Of a stretch of DNA of 64,000 nt, positions 17,191-23,727 are shown piece by piece (positions within the stretch are counted from its first letter, which is position 1; each line of letters starts with the position of its first letter). This stretch comes from Alphaproteobacteria bacterium (GTDB lineage Bacteria > Pseudomonadota > Alphaproteobacteria > Micropepsales > Micropepsaceae). A program made the position numbers and the translations under genes. The notes under the pieces are model-generated. The model had not been told where the DNA came from and did not search any database. It worked only from the letters and a program-made list of their open reading frames with translations. The DNA lies in assembly GCA_016783965.1 (NCBI GenBank), contig JADHVO010000007.1, forward strand, positions 62,001 through 126,000, in the 5' to 3' direction.

Positions 17191-18354
17191 ATGGTAGATG
17201 ATGCCCACAAGCACTACGAGGCTAAGCGCAAGCCGCTTGACCAGCGGCAGCTGGCGGCCGCTTTGATGTCGCATACGCGCTACCTCGCCTCCCAGGGTGG
17301 CGTGCGCGCGCAACTGGCACACCATAATCTCGACGGTCTCAATCTCGCGAACCGCAATCTGACCGAAGCCGACTTCACAGGTTGCTCCCTGATCGGTGCC
17401 AACCTCTCCGGCTCCAATCTCGATCGGGCCAGTCTCTATTGCGCTGATCTCCGGGACGCGAATCTGCAATCGTCGCGCCTCACGCGGGCCGATCTGCGCG
17501 GCGCCTCCTTTGCGGGCGCGCGCCTTGCCTACGCGCAGCTCGACAACGCCGACATGCGCACCGCCACGATGATGTACATGCAATGGGGCGGCGATGTCGC
17601 GGTCGTGGGCGGCGAGCGCTCGAAAGCCAGCGGCAACCCCAAAGGGGTCGATTTTTCGAACTGCTCGCTCAAGAACGTCTCGTTCGGCAGTGCGAAGCTC
17701 GACGACGCCAACTTCTCCGGCGCCCTGCTCCAGGGCGCCAACTTCAAAGGCGCCAGGCTCGGGAAAGCCACGTTCAAAGGGGCAGTGTTGACCGGCGTGA
17801 AGGATCTGACGGTGCCGCCCGGAGCCATCGCCGGCGCTGTCCGCGACGTAACACCGGAGGCCGCCGCCAAATTCGATCAACTGAAAGCGCAGCTTGAGTC
17901 CCACCAGACCTGGGTGATGAGCGCGGGCGCCAACGGTGTCCGTGCCGTCCTCGATGGTGAGGACCTGCGCCCGCTGCGACAACTGTTCGTTAGCCGCACG
18001 CTCACGGGGCTGTCGGCACGCAATGCTGTCGCAATTGGCCTCGATTTCTCCGGCAGCCAATTGCAGGCCGCGAAATTCGACGGTGCTGACCTGCGTGATG
18101 CGAATTTCTCCAACGCTGATCTGCGCGGTGCGTCGTTTCGCGGTGCGAACCTGGCGCACGCTTGTTTCGACGGAGCCAATCTCAACCGCCTCAAACTCAA
18201 CAATGGCAGCGAAATGAAGCCAGATTTCTCCGGTGCGCAGGCCGCAGAGGTCCAGTTCCATCGCGCAACCCTCGGCGACCAGCTGGCCGAGCTGGGACTG
18301 TCTCTCCCGTCATTGCGTGACGCCGGCATCGTTGAGCCGTTTTTTGCGCCATGA
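17191..18354 (+). CDS. Pentapeptide-repeat protein (tandem paralogue 2)
   Basis: 387 residues, same layout as its upstream neighbour: a short N-terminal helix pair, a first block of pentapeptide repeats (LDGLNLANRNLTEADFTGCS onward), a helical insert around 235-285, and a second block ending near PDFSGAQAAEV. The long shared N-terminus and matching insert show a tandem duplication, but sequence drift is considerable, so it is not recent. No enzyme motif, signal peptide or membrane segment is seen; a cytosolic scaffold or binding role is possible but not supported directly. Confidence 0.82.
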   Translation: MVDDAHKHYEAKRKPLDQRQLAAALMSHTRYLASQGGVRAQLAHHNLDGLNLANRNLTEADFTGCSLIGANLSGSNLDRASLYCADLRDANLQSSRLTRADLRGASFAGARLAYAQLDNADMRTATMMYMQWGGDVAVVGGERSKASGNPKGVDFSNCSLKNVSFGSAKLDDANFSGALLQGANFKGARLGKATFKGAVLTGVKDLTVPPGAIAGAVRDVTPEAAAKFDQLKAQLESHQTWVMSAGANGVRAVLDGEDLRPLRQLFVSRTLTGLSARNAVAIGLDFSGSQLQAAKFDGADLRDANFSNADLRGASFRGANLAHACFDGANLNRLKLNNGSEMKPDFSGAQAAEVQFHRATLGDQLAELGLSLPSLRDAGIVEPFFAP

Positions 18355-18510
18355 ATTTTGGGTCGTAACGGGTACCCAGGGTTGGGCCACCATGCTGAAG
18401 AACCTCAATGAGGAGCAACGGCCAGTTTCTTTGGCGGTGAGGGATGAATCTCGACGTCCCCGGTGTCGGCGCGATCAATCGCTGAACGCCAAGGCTCGGC
18501 AAGGCCGCGC

Positions 18511-19149
18511 TCAGATATCGCGCGCAAAGCGCTTGATGCCGGGAATGCCGAGCGCCGCTTCGAAATCGGGCGCGGTCTTCTGCTCGGCAAAGGCAAAACC
18601 TGCTTTGGTGTAGGCGCGCTCGGCCGGATCGTTGCCCATGAAGAAGCTGATCTGCGCCCGCTTGAACCCTGCCTTGCGCGCGCGCTCGAGATCGGCGGCG
18701 AGCAGTCTCTCGACCAGCCCTCGGCCGCGATATTCGGGCAGGGTGGCGACATTCTCGATCGTCCAGGCATCGTCTTCGCTGGTCGCAGGCGAGACGATGA
18801 ACCGTCCGCGCGGCCAGAATTGGGCCTGCTCGTCGCGCGGGATGCCCATCCTGTCGCCGGCTTCCGTCATGGCCGCCATCGATGCCGAATAGACGCTGTC
18901 GTCCCCGAAGCCGCACAACGCGGACGCCACCACGCCGTCTACTTCGGCAACAAGGAAATGCGACCAGTGCCACCACGACACGGCCTTCGCGAGCGTCAGG
19001 CACTTGGCGAACTCGAAGCAGAACGTGTCGTTGCGCCGAAGCACGATCTCGAACCAGCCACGCTTGAGCTGGCTGCGCGAAGCGATCACGGATGCCCAGC
19101 CGAGGAACGCGCCGTCATCGGGCGTGGCGGAACGGATGATGGTTGCCAT
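18511..19149 (-). CDS. GNAT family N-acetyltransferase
   Basis: 212 residues. The acetyl-CoA binding signature is present as ATLPEYRGRGLVERLLAADL, followed by KAGFKRAQISFFMGNDPAERAY and TKAGFAF, the usual order of motif A and motif B. The acceptor substrate is unknown. The frame is open upstream, but ATG 19149 has AGAAGGA in good position and starts with the typical MATIIRSATPDD. A CCTCCCC/GGGGAGG hairpin at 19161-19179 lies in the leader and might influence expression. Confidence 0.85.
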   Translation of the reverse strand: MATIIRSATPDDGAFLGWASVIASRSQLKRGWFEIVLRRNDTFCFEFAKCLTLAKAVSWWHWSHFLVAEVDGVVASALCGFGDDSVYSASMAAMTEAGDRMGIPRDEQAQFWPRGRFIVSPATSEDDAWTIENVATLPEYRGRGLVERLLAADLERARKAGFKRAQISFFMGNDPAERAYTKAGFAFAEQKTAPDFEAALGIPGIKRFARDI

Positions 19150-19379
19150 GCATCCTTCTACCTCCCCGGAACGGGGAGGTGAAAGTCTGGCGCTGTTGCT
19201 GCGGCGCCTCTTGTGACCAGCAGCGAACCCTTCTAGTTTCCGGCAATCCAAAAGGATTGGTCCCACTTTGCTGGTCGGTCGTCTAAGGCATTAACTCCGT
19301 CCGTTGGCCCGCGCCCCCTGCGCCCTGGCCCGGACGATGATTCACGCCTTCTCCGATCCACGCAGTTTCCGGGACCACC

Positions 19380-20549
19380 ATGGCCTTCTTCGCAAATCGC
19401 ACTGTCAATCTGTTCAGCCTGCATTTCATCATCTTCTCCGCCGCCTTCCAGGGTGGGGGAGCGTTCTACTCCATCTATCTGGTCAAGAGCGGCCTCTCCA
19501 TCCCGCTGGCGCTCATCGCGCTCGGCGCGGTGCAGGCGGTGCGTTTCTGCATCCGGCCGCTGGTGCTGGTGTTCGCCAGCCGCTTCGGCCTTCGCCAGAC
19601 GCTGATCACCGGCACGATGCTGACGGCGGTGCAGTACCCTATCCTCGCAGAGATCGCCGGCATCGGCCCGGTGCTCTACGCCCTGATCGTCGTCACCGCG
19701 GTGTCCGACGTGTTCTACTGGTCGAGCTACCACGCGACGTTCGCCCGGCTCGGCGACGACGAGCATCGCGGCTCGCAGATCAGCGTCCAGATCGCCGGCA
19801 TGGCGCTGGTCGGCATCGTGAGCCCAATCCTGAGCGGTTGGCTGCTTGCCACCTTCGGTCCGCGCTTCGCGTTCAACTTCAGCGGGCTGATCGTGCTGCT
19901 CTCGGTGATCCCGATGCTCTGGACACCCAACACGCCGATCTTGCGTCACATCGAAGGCGGCTTTCGCGCCGCGCTCGGCGACACGCTGCTCCTTCAGTCG
20001 ATGGACGGCTTCGTGGCGGCCGGGATGGTGTTCATCTGGCAGATCACGCTCTTCCTGACTCTCGGCGGAAGCTATCTGAACTACGGCAGTGCGCTGGCGG
20101 TGGCTGCGCTCGCCGGCGCCGTCGCGGGCATGGTGCTCGGGCGCTTCATCGACATGGGCCATGGCGTACGCATGGTGTGGATCGGGGCAGGGTTCTATTG
20201 CGCGGTGGTGGTGCTGCGTGCGCTTGCCAGCGGCCATCCCTGGCTCGCCGTGATCGCGTCGGCGCTTGGGCCTTTCGGCACCGCACTCTATGTCCCGGTG
20301 ATGATGACCCCGGTCTACACCCGTGCGAAGGCATCGCCTTGCGTGCTGCGTTTCCACATCGTGATGGAGGGCGGCTGGGACACCGGCAGCGTCATCGGCA
20401 CGTTCCTCTCCGCCGCACTGATCGCGATGGGTTTGTCCCTCGGCAACGCCATGCTGCTGTCGCTTATCGGCACGGTCACCTGTCTGGTGGTCTTGCGACG
20501 ATACTTCCTCGCGCATCCATCGCAGCACCTCGCAACGGCGGAGGCGTGA
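19380..20549 (+). CDS. MFS transporter (tandem paralogue 1)
   Basis: 389 residues with about twelve hydrophobic segments and no soluble domain. Shared with the next gene are the start MAFFxNRTVNL, YWSSYHATFARLGDDEHRGS in the first half and the block GGWDTGS before the last helix pair. The fold and the loop pattern fit a major facilitator permease, but no substrate-specific motif is recognised. One base separates its stop from the next start, so the two are co-translated. Confidence 0.8.
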   Translation: MAFFANRTVNLFSLHFIIFSAAFQGGGAFYSIYLVKSGLSIPLALIALGAVQAVRFCIRPLVLVFASRFGLRQTLITGTMLTAVQYPILAEIAGIGPVLYALIVVTAVSDVFYWSSYHATFARLGDDEHRGSQISVQIAGMALVGIVSPILSGWLLATFGPRFAFNFSGLIVLLSVIPMLWTPNTPILRHIEGGFRAALGDTLLLQSMDGFVAAGMVFIWQITLFLTLGGSYLNYGSALAVAALAGAVAGMVLGRFIDMGHGVRMVWIGAGFYCAVVVLRALASGHPWLAVIASALGPFGTALYVPVMMTPVYTRAKASPCVLRFHIVMEGGWDTGSVIGTFLSAALIAMGLSLGNAMLLSLIGTVTCLVVLRRYFLAHPSQHLATAEA

Positions 20550-20550
20550 A

Positions 20551-21738
20551 ATGGCGTTCTTCTCCAACCGCACCGTCAACCTGCTGAACCTGCACTACAC
20601 TATCGGTACGATCGCCACGAGCGGCGGCGGCGCCTTCTTCATGGTGTATCTATACAAGTCGGGTATCGGTGTCGCCGGCGTCCTGCTCGCGCTCGCGGCG
20701 CTGTTCGCCTCGCGGCTCCTTATCCGAACCTTCCTGCTGCCGCTCGCCATCCGCATCGGCCTCCGGTGGTGCGTGATCGCGGGCTCCATCGCCATGGGCA
20801 TCTCCTATCCGTTCCTCGCACATGTCACGGGCGTGAACGCGAGCCTCTTGTGGCTGGTGCTGGTGAGCGCGGCGGCCGACTGCATCTACTGGCCGAGCTA
20901 CCACGCCTACTTTGCCGCGCTGGGCGACGAAGAACACCGCGGTAGCCAGCTGGGCCTGCGCGAAGCCATTGCCGCGGCCGTGGGCATCGCCAGCCCGCTG
21001 GTCGCCGGCTGGCTGCTGGTGACCTTCGGGCCGATCGCCGCGTTCTATCTGACCGGCGCGATTCAGGCCCTGGCCGCGATCCCGATCTTCTGGACGCCGG
21101 ACGTACCCGTTCCGCGCGTAGCGCCCGGCGCGTACCGTGCCGCGCTTTCCGGTGCTGCGCTTTTCGTCGGCGACGGCTTCGTGGCGGCGGCGTATTTCCT
21201 CGTCTGGCAGCTCGTGCTGTTTATCGCGCTCGGCAAGGACGTCATGGCCTTCGGCGGCGCGCTCGCCGTGGCGGCGTTGGTGGGTTCGGTGGCGGGCCTG
21301 TTCCTCGGCCGCCTGATCGACTCCGGCAAGGGCGCGCGCGCCGTGTGGATCTCCATCGGCGTGCTGGTTGCCGTGATCCTGATGCGCACCGCCGCACAGG
21401 GTCATCCGACGCTCGCGATCGTCGCTAACGCGCTTGGCGCCTTCGTCGGCTGCATCTATGTCCCGACGATGATGACCGCGGTCTACAACCAGGCGAAGCG
21501 TTCGCCCTGCGTTACCCGCTTCCACATCGCGGCGGAGGGTGGCTGGGACGTCGGCGTCTCGACAGGCCTCACGCTCGCCGCCGCGCTGGTGTGGCTGGGT
21601 GTGCCGCTTGCCTGGACGATCCTGCTCGCGCTGATCGGCGCGACGACGTCTTTCATCCTGCTGCACCGCTACTACCGCACGCACGCGTCCGAACTGGTCG
21701 ACGCGTCCGCTCAGCCGGAGGAAGCCGTGAAGATATGA
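20551..21738 (+). CDS. MFS transporter (tandem paralogue 2)
   Basis: 395 residues, twelve predicted helices, clearly paralogous to the gene just upstream (MAFFSNRTVNLLNLHYTIG; YWPSYHAYFAALGDEEHRGS; EGGWDVGVSTG). The close pairing may mean two related substrates or a heteromeric arrangement, but single-chain function is usual for the family. The 3' end overlaps the end of the convergent rsmD gene by 28 bp. Confidence 0.8.
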   Translation: MAFFSNRTVNLLNLHYTIGTIATSGGGAFFMVYLYKSGIGVAGVLLALAALFASRLLIRTFLLPLAIRIGLRWCVIAGSIAMGISYPFLAHVTGVNASLLWLVLVSAAADCIYWPSYHAYFAALGDEEHRGSQLGLREAIAAAVGIASPLVAGWLLVTFGPIAAFYLTGAIQALAAIPIFWTPDVPVPRVAPGAYRAALSGAALFVGDGFVAAAYFLVWQLVLFIALGKDVMAFGGALAVAALVGSVAGLFLGRLIDSGKGARAVWISIGVLVAVILMRTAAQGHPTLAIVANALGAFVGCIYVPTMMTAVYNQAKRSPCVTRFHIAAEGGWDVGVSTGLTLAAALVWLGVPLAWTILLALIGATTSFILLHRYYRTHASELVDASAQPEEAVKI

Positions 21739-22277
21739 ACCGCTGTCTCGCCGTAGGAGCGCCGGTCGAGCAGGCAATAGCCCTCCGCGTCCAGCGCTTC
21801 GTCGTTCGCAGTCTCGGCGACGGCGAGCGCGCCGGGCGTGAGCCATCCGCCCGCGCGCAGGCTCGCCAGCGCCGGCGCGGTCAGGTCCTTGCGATACGGT
21901 GCATCGAGGAGCGCGAGCGAGAACGGCCCGCCCGCACCCGCCGCCATCGGCCCCAGGTCACGCGCGTCGCGCCGCCAGATCTTCGTCGCGCCCGTCAGCC
22001 CCAGCGCCTCGACATTGGTGCGGATGAGCCCGCGGCTCTCCGCGCTGTCATCCACGAACAGCGCGAACGCCGCCCCGCGACTCAGCGCCTCCAGCCCCAG
22101 CGACCCCGTTCCCGCATACAGATCGATCACCTTCGCACCCTCGAGGTCGAACCCGCAGTCGTTGTGCGCCAGGATGTTGAAGATTGCTTGCCGCACCTTG
22201 TCCGATGTCGGTCGCACGCGATTGTCCGGCGGCTCCGCCAGCGCGCGCCCGCGGAACTGTCCGCCAGTGATCCTCAA
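21711..22277 (-). CDS. rsmD: 16S rRNA (guanine(966)-N2)-methyltransferase RsmD
   Basis: 188 residues. The family start MRITGGQFRGR and VRPTSDKVRQAIFNIL are unmistakable; the SAM site is VIDLYAGTGSLGLEAL. The catalytic motif reads LLDAPYRKDL where most family members have DPPY. The enzyme modifies small-subunit rRNA. The start codon is TTG at 22277-22275, provided together with its GAGGA ribosome-binding site by a 14-bp tandem repeat. Upstream copies of the same start all run into TGA after five codons. It is the last gene of a leftward operon with a GNAT gene and an oxidoreductase gene. Confidence 0.92.
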   Translation of the reverse strand: MRITGGQFRGRALAEPPDNRVRPTSDKVRQAIFNILAHNDCGFDLEGAKVIDLYAGTGSLGLEALSRGAAFALFVDDSAESRGLIRTNVEALGLTGATKIWRRDARDLGPMAAGAGGPFSLALLDAPYRKDLTAPALASLRAGGWLTPGALAVAETANDEALDAEGYCLLDRRSYGETAVHIFTASSG

Positions 22278-22320
22278 CGAGTGATCCTCAACGAGTGATC
22301 CTCAACGAGTGATCCTCACA
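22267..22320. repeat. 14-bp tandem repeat covering the rsmD start
   Basis: The unit GTGATCCTCAACGA occurs at 22267-22280, 22281-22294 and 22295-22308, followed by a partial copy GTGATCCTCACA at 22309-22320. Read on the minus strand, each unit contains GAGGA and a TTG (or, in the outermost copy, GTG) start. It lies between the stop of the GNAT gene and rsmD. Confidence 0.95.
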
Positions 22321-22719
22321 GGTCCTTCCGCATGAAGTGGCGCCGGTACTTGCCGCCACCGAACGCCATCTCGCCAAAGCAGGAATAGCCCATCGCCTCG
22401 TAGAACGGCCGCGCCTGCCAGCTCGCGGTGTAAAGCCATGCGTGCGTCGCACCGAGACGCCGTCCTTCCGCTTCCGCCATCTCCAGCATCGCGCGCCCGT
22501 GCCCCAGGCCGCGCAGAGAGTCGTCGATCCACACGGTCGACACATACAACGTATCCAGGAACACCCGCGCCGTGATGCCGCCGATCACCGCGCTGTCGTC
22601 GCCCCGCACCGACACCTGCACCGGAATCCAGTCCGGCGCGCCCATCGTGCGCACGTTGAACGCGGTGAGCCCGGCCTCGATCGCGTCGGCGACGTCCTTG
22701 CCGGGATCGAACGCGATCT

Positions 22720-22723
<4 letters not shown>
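22316..22723 (-). CDS. GNAT family N-acetyltransferase
   Basis: 135 residues. The acetyl-CoA motif is DDSLRGLGHGRAMLEMAEAE, followed by GATHAWLYTASWQARPFYEA, typical for small GNAT enzymes with a C-terminal FYExxGF-type block. Substrate unknown. The start is TTG at 22723-22721, overlapping the stop of the upstream oxidoreductase as TTGA, with GGAGGA placed just before it. Its own stop lies in a GTGA at the edge of the 14-bp repeat, which looks like the remains of a former overlap with rsmD. Confidence 0.85.

Positions 22724-23727
<1,004 letters not shown>

Follow-up and report, generated by a model that had tools for sequence, protein, structure and literature searches.

A 14-bp tandem array before rsmD as a probable duplication of the GNAT/rsmD stop/start junction

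A 14-bp tandem array lies between a GNAT acetyltransferase gene and rsmD in the window, i.e. the whole 64,000-nt stretch of DNA analysed here. It is real and has expanded recently, and duplication of a stop/start junction accounts for it well. The best reading, as far as the sequence allows, is that the array would act as a self-made, miniature MIRU-like relay which renders the duplication tolerable.

The array and the genes that it joins

The earlier note had counted nearly four 14-bp units between the GNAT stop and rsmD, and TRF indeed reports 3.8 copies with a 100 % match and a score of 106 on the minus strand. The span is 22266-22318 and not, as given there, 22267-22320. On the minus strand the array reads as three TGAGGATCACTCGT units followed by TGAGGATCACT; approached from the GNAT end, the sequence runs CGG AAG GAC CTG, TGAGGATCACTCGT three times, and then TGAGGATCACTGGCGG onwards, the first TGA being the GNAT stop. 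Among the 52 rows returned by TRF for the window, the array stands top and the runner-up scores 56. Two arrays outscore it on the whole 336-kb contig (Table 1), and the top scores reached in simulated 336-kb contigs were 94 with a first-order and 72 with a fifth-order Markov model (20 runs each). A survey of 2.32 of the 4.29 Mb of the genome for exact tandem repeats (unit length 8-60 bp, total length 20 bp or more) found 21 repeats, i.e. 14 with a period divisible by 3 and seven without, and among these seven the 14-bp array is both the longest and the one with the most copies. A search of the whole genome for a pair of the units, with up to two mismatches allowed, found none beyond the array.

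Table 1. Features at the GNAT/rsmD junction (positions within the window) and higher-scoring arrays on the 336-kb contig
Feature	Position	Strand	Details
NADPH-dependent curcumin-reductase-like gene, before GNAT	22720..23727	-	NF058644, 5e-114, 380.9 bits, under the cut-off of 440
GNAT acetyltransferase gene	22316..22723	-	TTG 22723, TGA 22318-22316; Pfam PF00583 Acetyltransf_1, 6.5e-10
Mini-ORF 1	22302..22319	-	GTG AGG ATC ACT CGT TGA; GTG overlapping the stop of GNAT (GTGA, probably the ancestral junction)
Array of 14-bp units	22266..22318	-	3 full units + 11 bp, exact (TRF)
Mini-ORF 2	22288..22305	-	TTG AGG ATC ACT CGT TGA; TTGA overlap with mini-ORF 1
Mini-ORF 3	22274..22291	-	TTG AGG ATC ACT CGT TGA; TTGA shared by its stop and the rsmD start
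GAGGA, Shine-Dalgarno-like site for rsmD	22285..22289	-	In codons 1-3 of mini-ORF 3, 7 nt before TTG
rsmD, 16S rRNA m2G966 methyltransferase gene	21711..22277	-	TTG start, 188 aa; TIGR00095, 136.7 bits
Array of 21-bp units, on contig			Score 141, 83 % match (TRF)
Array of 30-bp units, on contig			Score 138, exact, 2.3 copies (TRF)

The RsmD assignment exceeds the curated TIGR00095 cut-off of 117.5 bits. As had been proposed, rsmD is opened only by the innermost TTG (22277-22275), with the GAGGA of the previous unit in front of it. This start is backed by homology: a search with RsmD matched 62 of the 69 genus genomes at E ≤ 0.001, with a weak match in G064, and (M/V/L)R(I/V) stands at the aligned place in all 61 loci that were read, including that of G003, whose start was extrapolated from a match beginning at residue 10. 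The start codon at this place is ATG in 41 loci, GTG in 13, TTG in six and CTG in one, i.e. G008, where GTG ATG precedes the CTG in frame. By eye, the reductase stop and the GNAT start share TTGA at 22720-22723 of the minus strand, and both junctions of the three-gene run reductase-GNAT-rsmD are built on NTGA overlaps.

Between the GNAT stop (TGA 22318-22316, overlapped by GTG 22319-22317) and rsmD lies a gap of 38 nt, filled by three 18-nt mini-ORFs that are joined through four-base overlaps. Translation from the outer starts gives V/L-R-I-T-R-stop, in agreement with the earlier observation that reading from the outermost start (V-R-I-T-R-stop) ends after five codons. With a GTGA junction and a period of 2 modulo 3, each copied start meets, five codons on, the TGA of the following copy, and every copy is thereby a five-codon mini-ORF, with its TGA overlapping the next start and GAGGA 7 nt before that start. 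For the GAGGA of rsmD, the computed anti-SD duplex is -5.6 kcal/mol at a spacing of 7; an anti-SD sequence was assumed for all duplex energies, a pattern search of the genome for the 3' end of its 16S rRNA having given no match.

The junction in relatives and in wider samples

GNAT was found directly before rsmD in eight of the 61 genus loci (tblastn, E 1e-4, inside the fetched flanks), i.e. in G000, which is the genome bearing the array, in its sister species G019, and in G030, G014, G015, G008, G033 and G007. Half of these eight (G019, G030, G014 and G015) have a plain GTGA overlap without insertion, which supports the earlier suggestion that the outermost GTGA looks like the original junction. 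At the junction of G008 (GTGATGCTGCGC), GTGATG forms a GTGA overlap with a two-codon extension, and in G007 the junction reads GTGCGC with the GNAT frame running on (read by eye). Insertions at the GNAT/rsmD junction measure +42 in G000 and +14 in G033.

In a tree of the 61 RsmD proteins, G000 and G019 are sisters with a support of 99/90 and G033 is placed elsewhere; the three label changes given by the tree tool may equal one gain and two losses, and the well-supported branches force at least two changes. Most simply, the array would have arisen in the G000 lineage after the split from G019, as a lineage-specific duplication of the ancestral GTGA junction, and the G033 insertion would be a separate event.

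The G033 insert agrees with the preceding 14 nt at nine of 14 positions and differs from them by five transitions, the pattern expected of an old tandem duplication; the rsmD start constrains all of the insert but the first 5 nt, and for these 5 nt the simulated chance of such agreement is 0.028. G033 looks like the carrier of a decayed 14-bp duplication at its GNAT/rsmD junction. At this place (G033:C37:99576-99605, L015) the new start is ATG, with TGAGGAT remaining from the old start. The SD duplexes of G000 and G033 are both -5.6 kcal/mol at a spacing of 7 nt, and those of G019, G030, G015, G008 and G007 are -3.5, -0.2, -3.5, -4.9 (measured to the CTG) and -3.3 kcal/mol, respectively. The duplex of G014 reaches -5.7 kcal/mol, but at a spacing of just 3 nt. 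Among the genus loci lacking GNAT there are many with stronger SD duplexes, down to -10.0 kcal/mol, without any duplication.

Larger samples were searched for a degenerate pattern, TGAGRRT before an AGR-type rsmD start, with periods of 11-20 allowed. Among the 96 genomes of the family sample, which also made up the order-level sample, there were three matches (G000, G033 and G044), all at rsmD and all with period 14, and the reversed-pattern control gave none in the same 96 genomes. The class sample of 385 genomes yielded five matches, four of them at rsmD, i.e. G000, G129 and G401 with period 14 and G234 with period 13; the fifth, in G404 (period 15), had no rsmD match. Counting G000, which is in both samples, once, there are six distinct rsmD cases, five with period 14 and one with period 13. 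By eye, the TGA of the first copy closes the preceding frame in G129 and G401; the preceding frame of G234 encloses the first copy. We rejected the clustering at period 14 as general evidence of recurrent duplication: 14 nt is also an ordinary distance from a TGAGG stop/SD to a start, and a five-codon mini-ORF is forced by period 14. For most of the cases besides G000 and G033, ordinary stop/SD fusion is an equally good explanation.

When the pattern was changed to CGN at codon 2 as a control, 12 matches were obtained in ten of the 96 genomes, with rsmD matched at none of these 12 places, and the reversed CGN pattern gave four matches in four genomes. Codon 2 of rsmD is a CG codon in 39 and an AG codon in 22 of the 61 genus loci. 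The occurrence in three of the 22 (AG) versus none of the 39 (CG) agrees weakly with SD creation.

A possible relay and its alternatives

We lean slightly towards an explanation in which the junction was duplicated and the resulting chain of mini-ORFs is tolerated. The 14 bp across an ancestral GNAT/rsmD GTGA overlap would have been duplicated in tandem, as the comparison with relatives supports, and then amplified by slippage. The chain of three five-codon mini-ORFs that this would have left can be read in the sequence: every TGA shares NTGA with the following start, for which each ORF supplies GAGGA at 7 nt. RsmD translation starts at the innermost TTG, which ribosomes may reach from GNAT in steps of termination-reinitiation through the mini-ORFs, by initiating de novo at GAGGA, or in both ways. 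Since the geometry makes every copy a complete stop-SD-start module, copies gained or lost would spare the rsmD start, and the repeat would be tolerated. Counted in support are the relatives with GTGA, the +14 of G033, the SD of -5.6 kcal/mol at 7 nt and the rank of the array among repeats with a period not divisible by 3. Counted against it are the equally strong SD duplex of G014 and the stronger ones at loci without duplication, the few unconstrained positions of the G033 insert, and the alternative of one gain and two losses in the tree. The relay geometry is automatic, given a GTGA junction and a period of 14, and is therefore no proof of selection; by the same reasoning on sequence, any tandem duplication at a GTGA junction with a period of 2 modulo 3 and no other stop would automatically make a relay.

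Working in E. coli, Huber et al. 2023 (PMC10666635) measured that reinitiation across a gap of 38 nt fell by 80-90 % in two gene pairs and was lost altogether in a third; for reinitiation at the overlap, it sufficed to fuse the last 15 nt of an upstream gene to a full reporter gene. The gap between GNAT and rsmD has the same 38 nt, and a direct handover between these two genes is therefore expected to be poor, unless it is bridged by the mini-ORFs. A relay through the array would require reinitiation after five-codon ORFs, the 15-nt result (PMC10666635) having concerned the fusion to a full reporter. Ribosomes should be lost over several successive rounds of reinitiation. TTG is, moreover, a weaker start than GTG.

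With regard to slippage, the earlier note had suggested that copy number could change both the distance and the coupling between the two genes. The distance does change. In silico, arrays in which the last copy is preceded by one to four units share the LRITGGQ start and the unit in front of it, so that a change in copy number shifts the frame of neither gene and leaves the rsmD start unaltered. The immediate start module of rsmD, i.e. the stop/start overlap with its SD, is the same at any count of at least two units, and an on/off switch by frame is therefore not expected. What copy number changes is only the 38-nt gap, the relay step count and the predicted RNA pairing. Slippage could alter coupling only through RNA folding or the count of relay steps, and the earlier idea of coupling, plausible as it is, is better put as a relay than as a frame or start switch.

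Predicted folding of the 105 nt around the array gave -43.2 kcal/mol (z -2.0; seven of 200 shuffles as low), and that of the array alone -21.5, as low as which came 11 of 500 shuffles. A special hairpin is not claimed, arrays of shuffled units folding as well in 113 of 500 cases.

The array might also be a neutral slippage product without effect, with rsmD initiated de novo at GAGGA-N7-TTG and the coupling to GNAT lost, which we regard as a serious possibility though not a probable one. The copies are exact, and so recent, the array is missing from the sister species G019, and GNAT precedes rsmD in so few of the genus loci that GNAT coupling is not conserved; on the other hand, a second +14 event at the GNAT/rsmD junction, that of G033, yields the same SD spacing. 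That copy number switches rsmD expression between cells, making the array a contingency locus, we consider improbable. While an exact short tandem repeat does lie at a translation start, and the predicted mean unpaired value of the rsmD SD is 0.2, 0.4 and 0.01 for two, three and four units and 0.0 for five to seven, the frame of GNAT and rsmD is unaffected by copy number, rsmD encodes a housekeeping RNA methyltransferase, and the shuffled-unit arrays fold equally well as often as stated above. A copy-number effect on the predicted pairing of the rsmD SD is accordingly given little weight.

Ordinary stop/SD fusion would place TGAGG 14 nt before the start and attribute the start likeness to the NTG-AGR of rsmD and not to duplication. 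It is quite likely for G044, where the match is just 7/14, for G129 and G401 (14 nt in all three) and for G234 (13 nt). As an account of the array it is very improbable, leaving the 53-bp exact array of G000 unexplained and being refuted there, and the fit of the G033 insert to its flank, with transitions only, also speaks against it. Tandem repeats can be misassembled, but an assembly artefact is scarcely credible here, given that 53 bp are short enough to be spanned by ordinary reads, that the contig measures 336 kb, and that the genome of 15 contigs is rated 100 % complete.

Returning to the duplicated junction and its relay, a broader claim can be attached to it: duplication of an NTGA junction with AGR as codon 2 would in one step provide an SD for the new start and a stop neutralising the old one, gene coupling would survive, rsmD output would depend on how many relay steps there are, and operon junctions would have in such duplication a general mutational route to ribosome-binding sites. 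We hold this broader claim to be rather unlikely. No description of a duplicated start junction making a ribosome site was found in the openly licensed PMC literature searched. If the relay works, it would offer a natural series for testing ribosome handover across several overlaps in a row, would show that a ribosome-binding site can come from tandem duplication while two genes stay coupled, and would explain a frame-breaking repeat on the start of a housekeeping gene.

Comparison with known systems and other repeats of the genome

Among known systems the array is nearest to MIRU, yet it is not a MIRU. A 2025 review (PMC12548453) describes MIRU of mycobacteria as apparently mobile repeats at start codons, with an internal ORF coupled at -4 nt to the gene, and their insertion as probably disturbing expression little. 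The likeness, i.e. a small ORF with a 4-nt overlap to the next gene, is one of arrangement only, there being three mini-ORFs and TTGA here. MIRU are dispersed at many loci, whereas the 14-bp array is at one locus and would have been made by duplicating the junction itself. The units of MIRU are tens of bp long, in contrast to the 14 bp with a five-codon ORF found here.

Each step of the array has an overlap and an SD-like site, as NTGA (-4 nt) overlapping gene pairs do (PMC6728339); such pairs have one overlap each, whereas the array has four in series across the 38-nt gap. The closeness of stop and start that marks a termination-reinitiation pair exists between successive mini-ORFs, but from GNAT directly to rsmD the distance is 38 nt. 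The TAACTGA heptamer repeats of Beggiatoaceae are likewise direct repeats immediately before start codons; however, they have little SD character (PMC4679880) and occur in many sets, whereas the array unit supplies both SD and start at one place. Phase-variable repeats of contingency loci share with the array a slippage-prone short tandem repeat at the start, and differ in that the copy number of the array shifts neither the GNAT nor the rsmD frame.

Two of the seven exact repeats with a period not divisible by three, the 14-bp array and the duplication described next, make a geometry of relay type; read by eye, the other five did not show it. An exact 11-bp duplication (G000:C1:239874-239895; L192, L280) straddles the ATG of another acetyltransferase (GNAT) gene (Pfam PF13302); its upper copy reads ATG AGT TGT GGA TGA, a four-codon mini-ORF whose stop overlaps the ATG of the gene. 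The one relative read for this PF13302 gene, G008 (L281), is without the 11-bp copy. Another exact 11-bp duplication, CCTGAACCGAA twice (G000:C8:118213-118234; L265), ends immediately before the ATG of a 171-codon ORF. Finally, within one of the first 20-kb pieces of the G000 contigs C1-C3 (L163-L165), a tandem array with a 207-bp unit, 12.9 copies and a 72 % match occupies positions 17266-19930 and is perhaps, as a guess, a repetitive surface protein gene.
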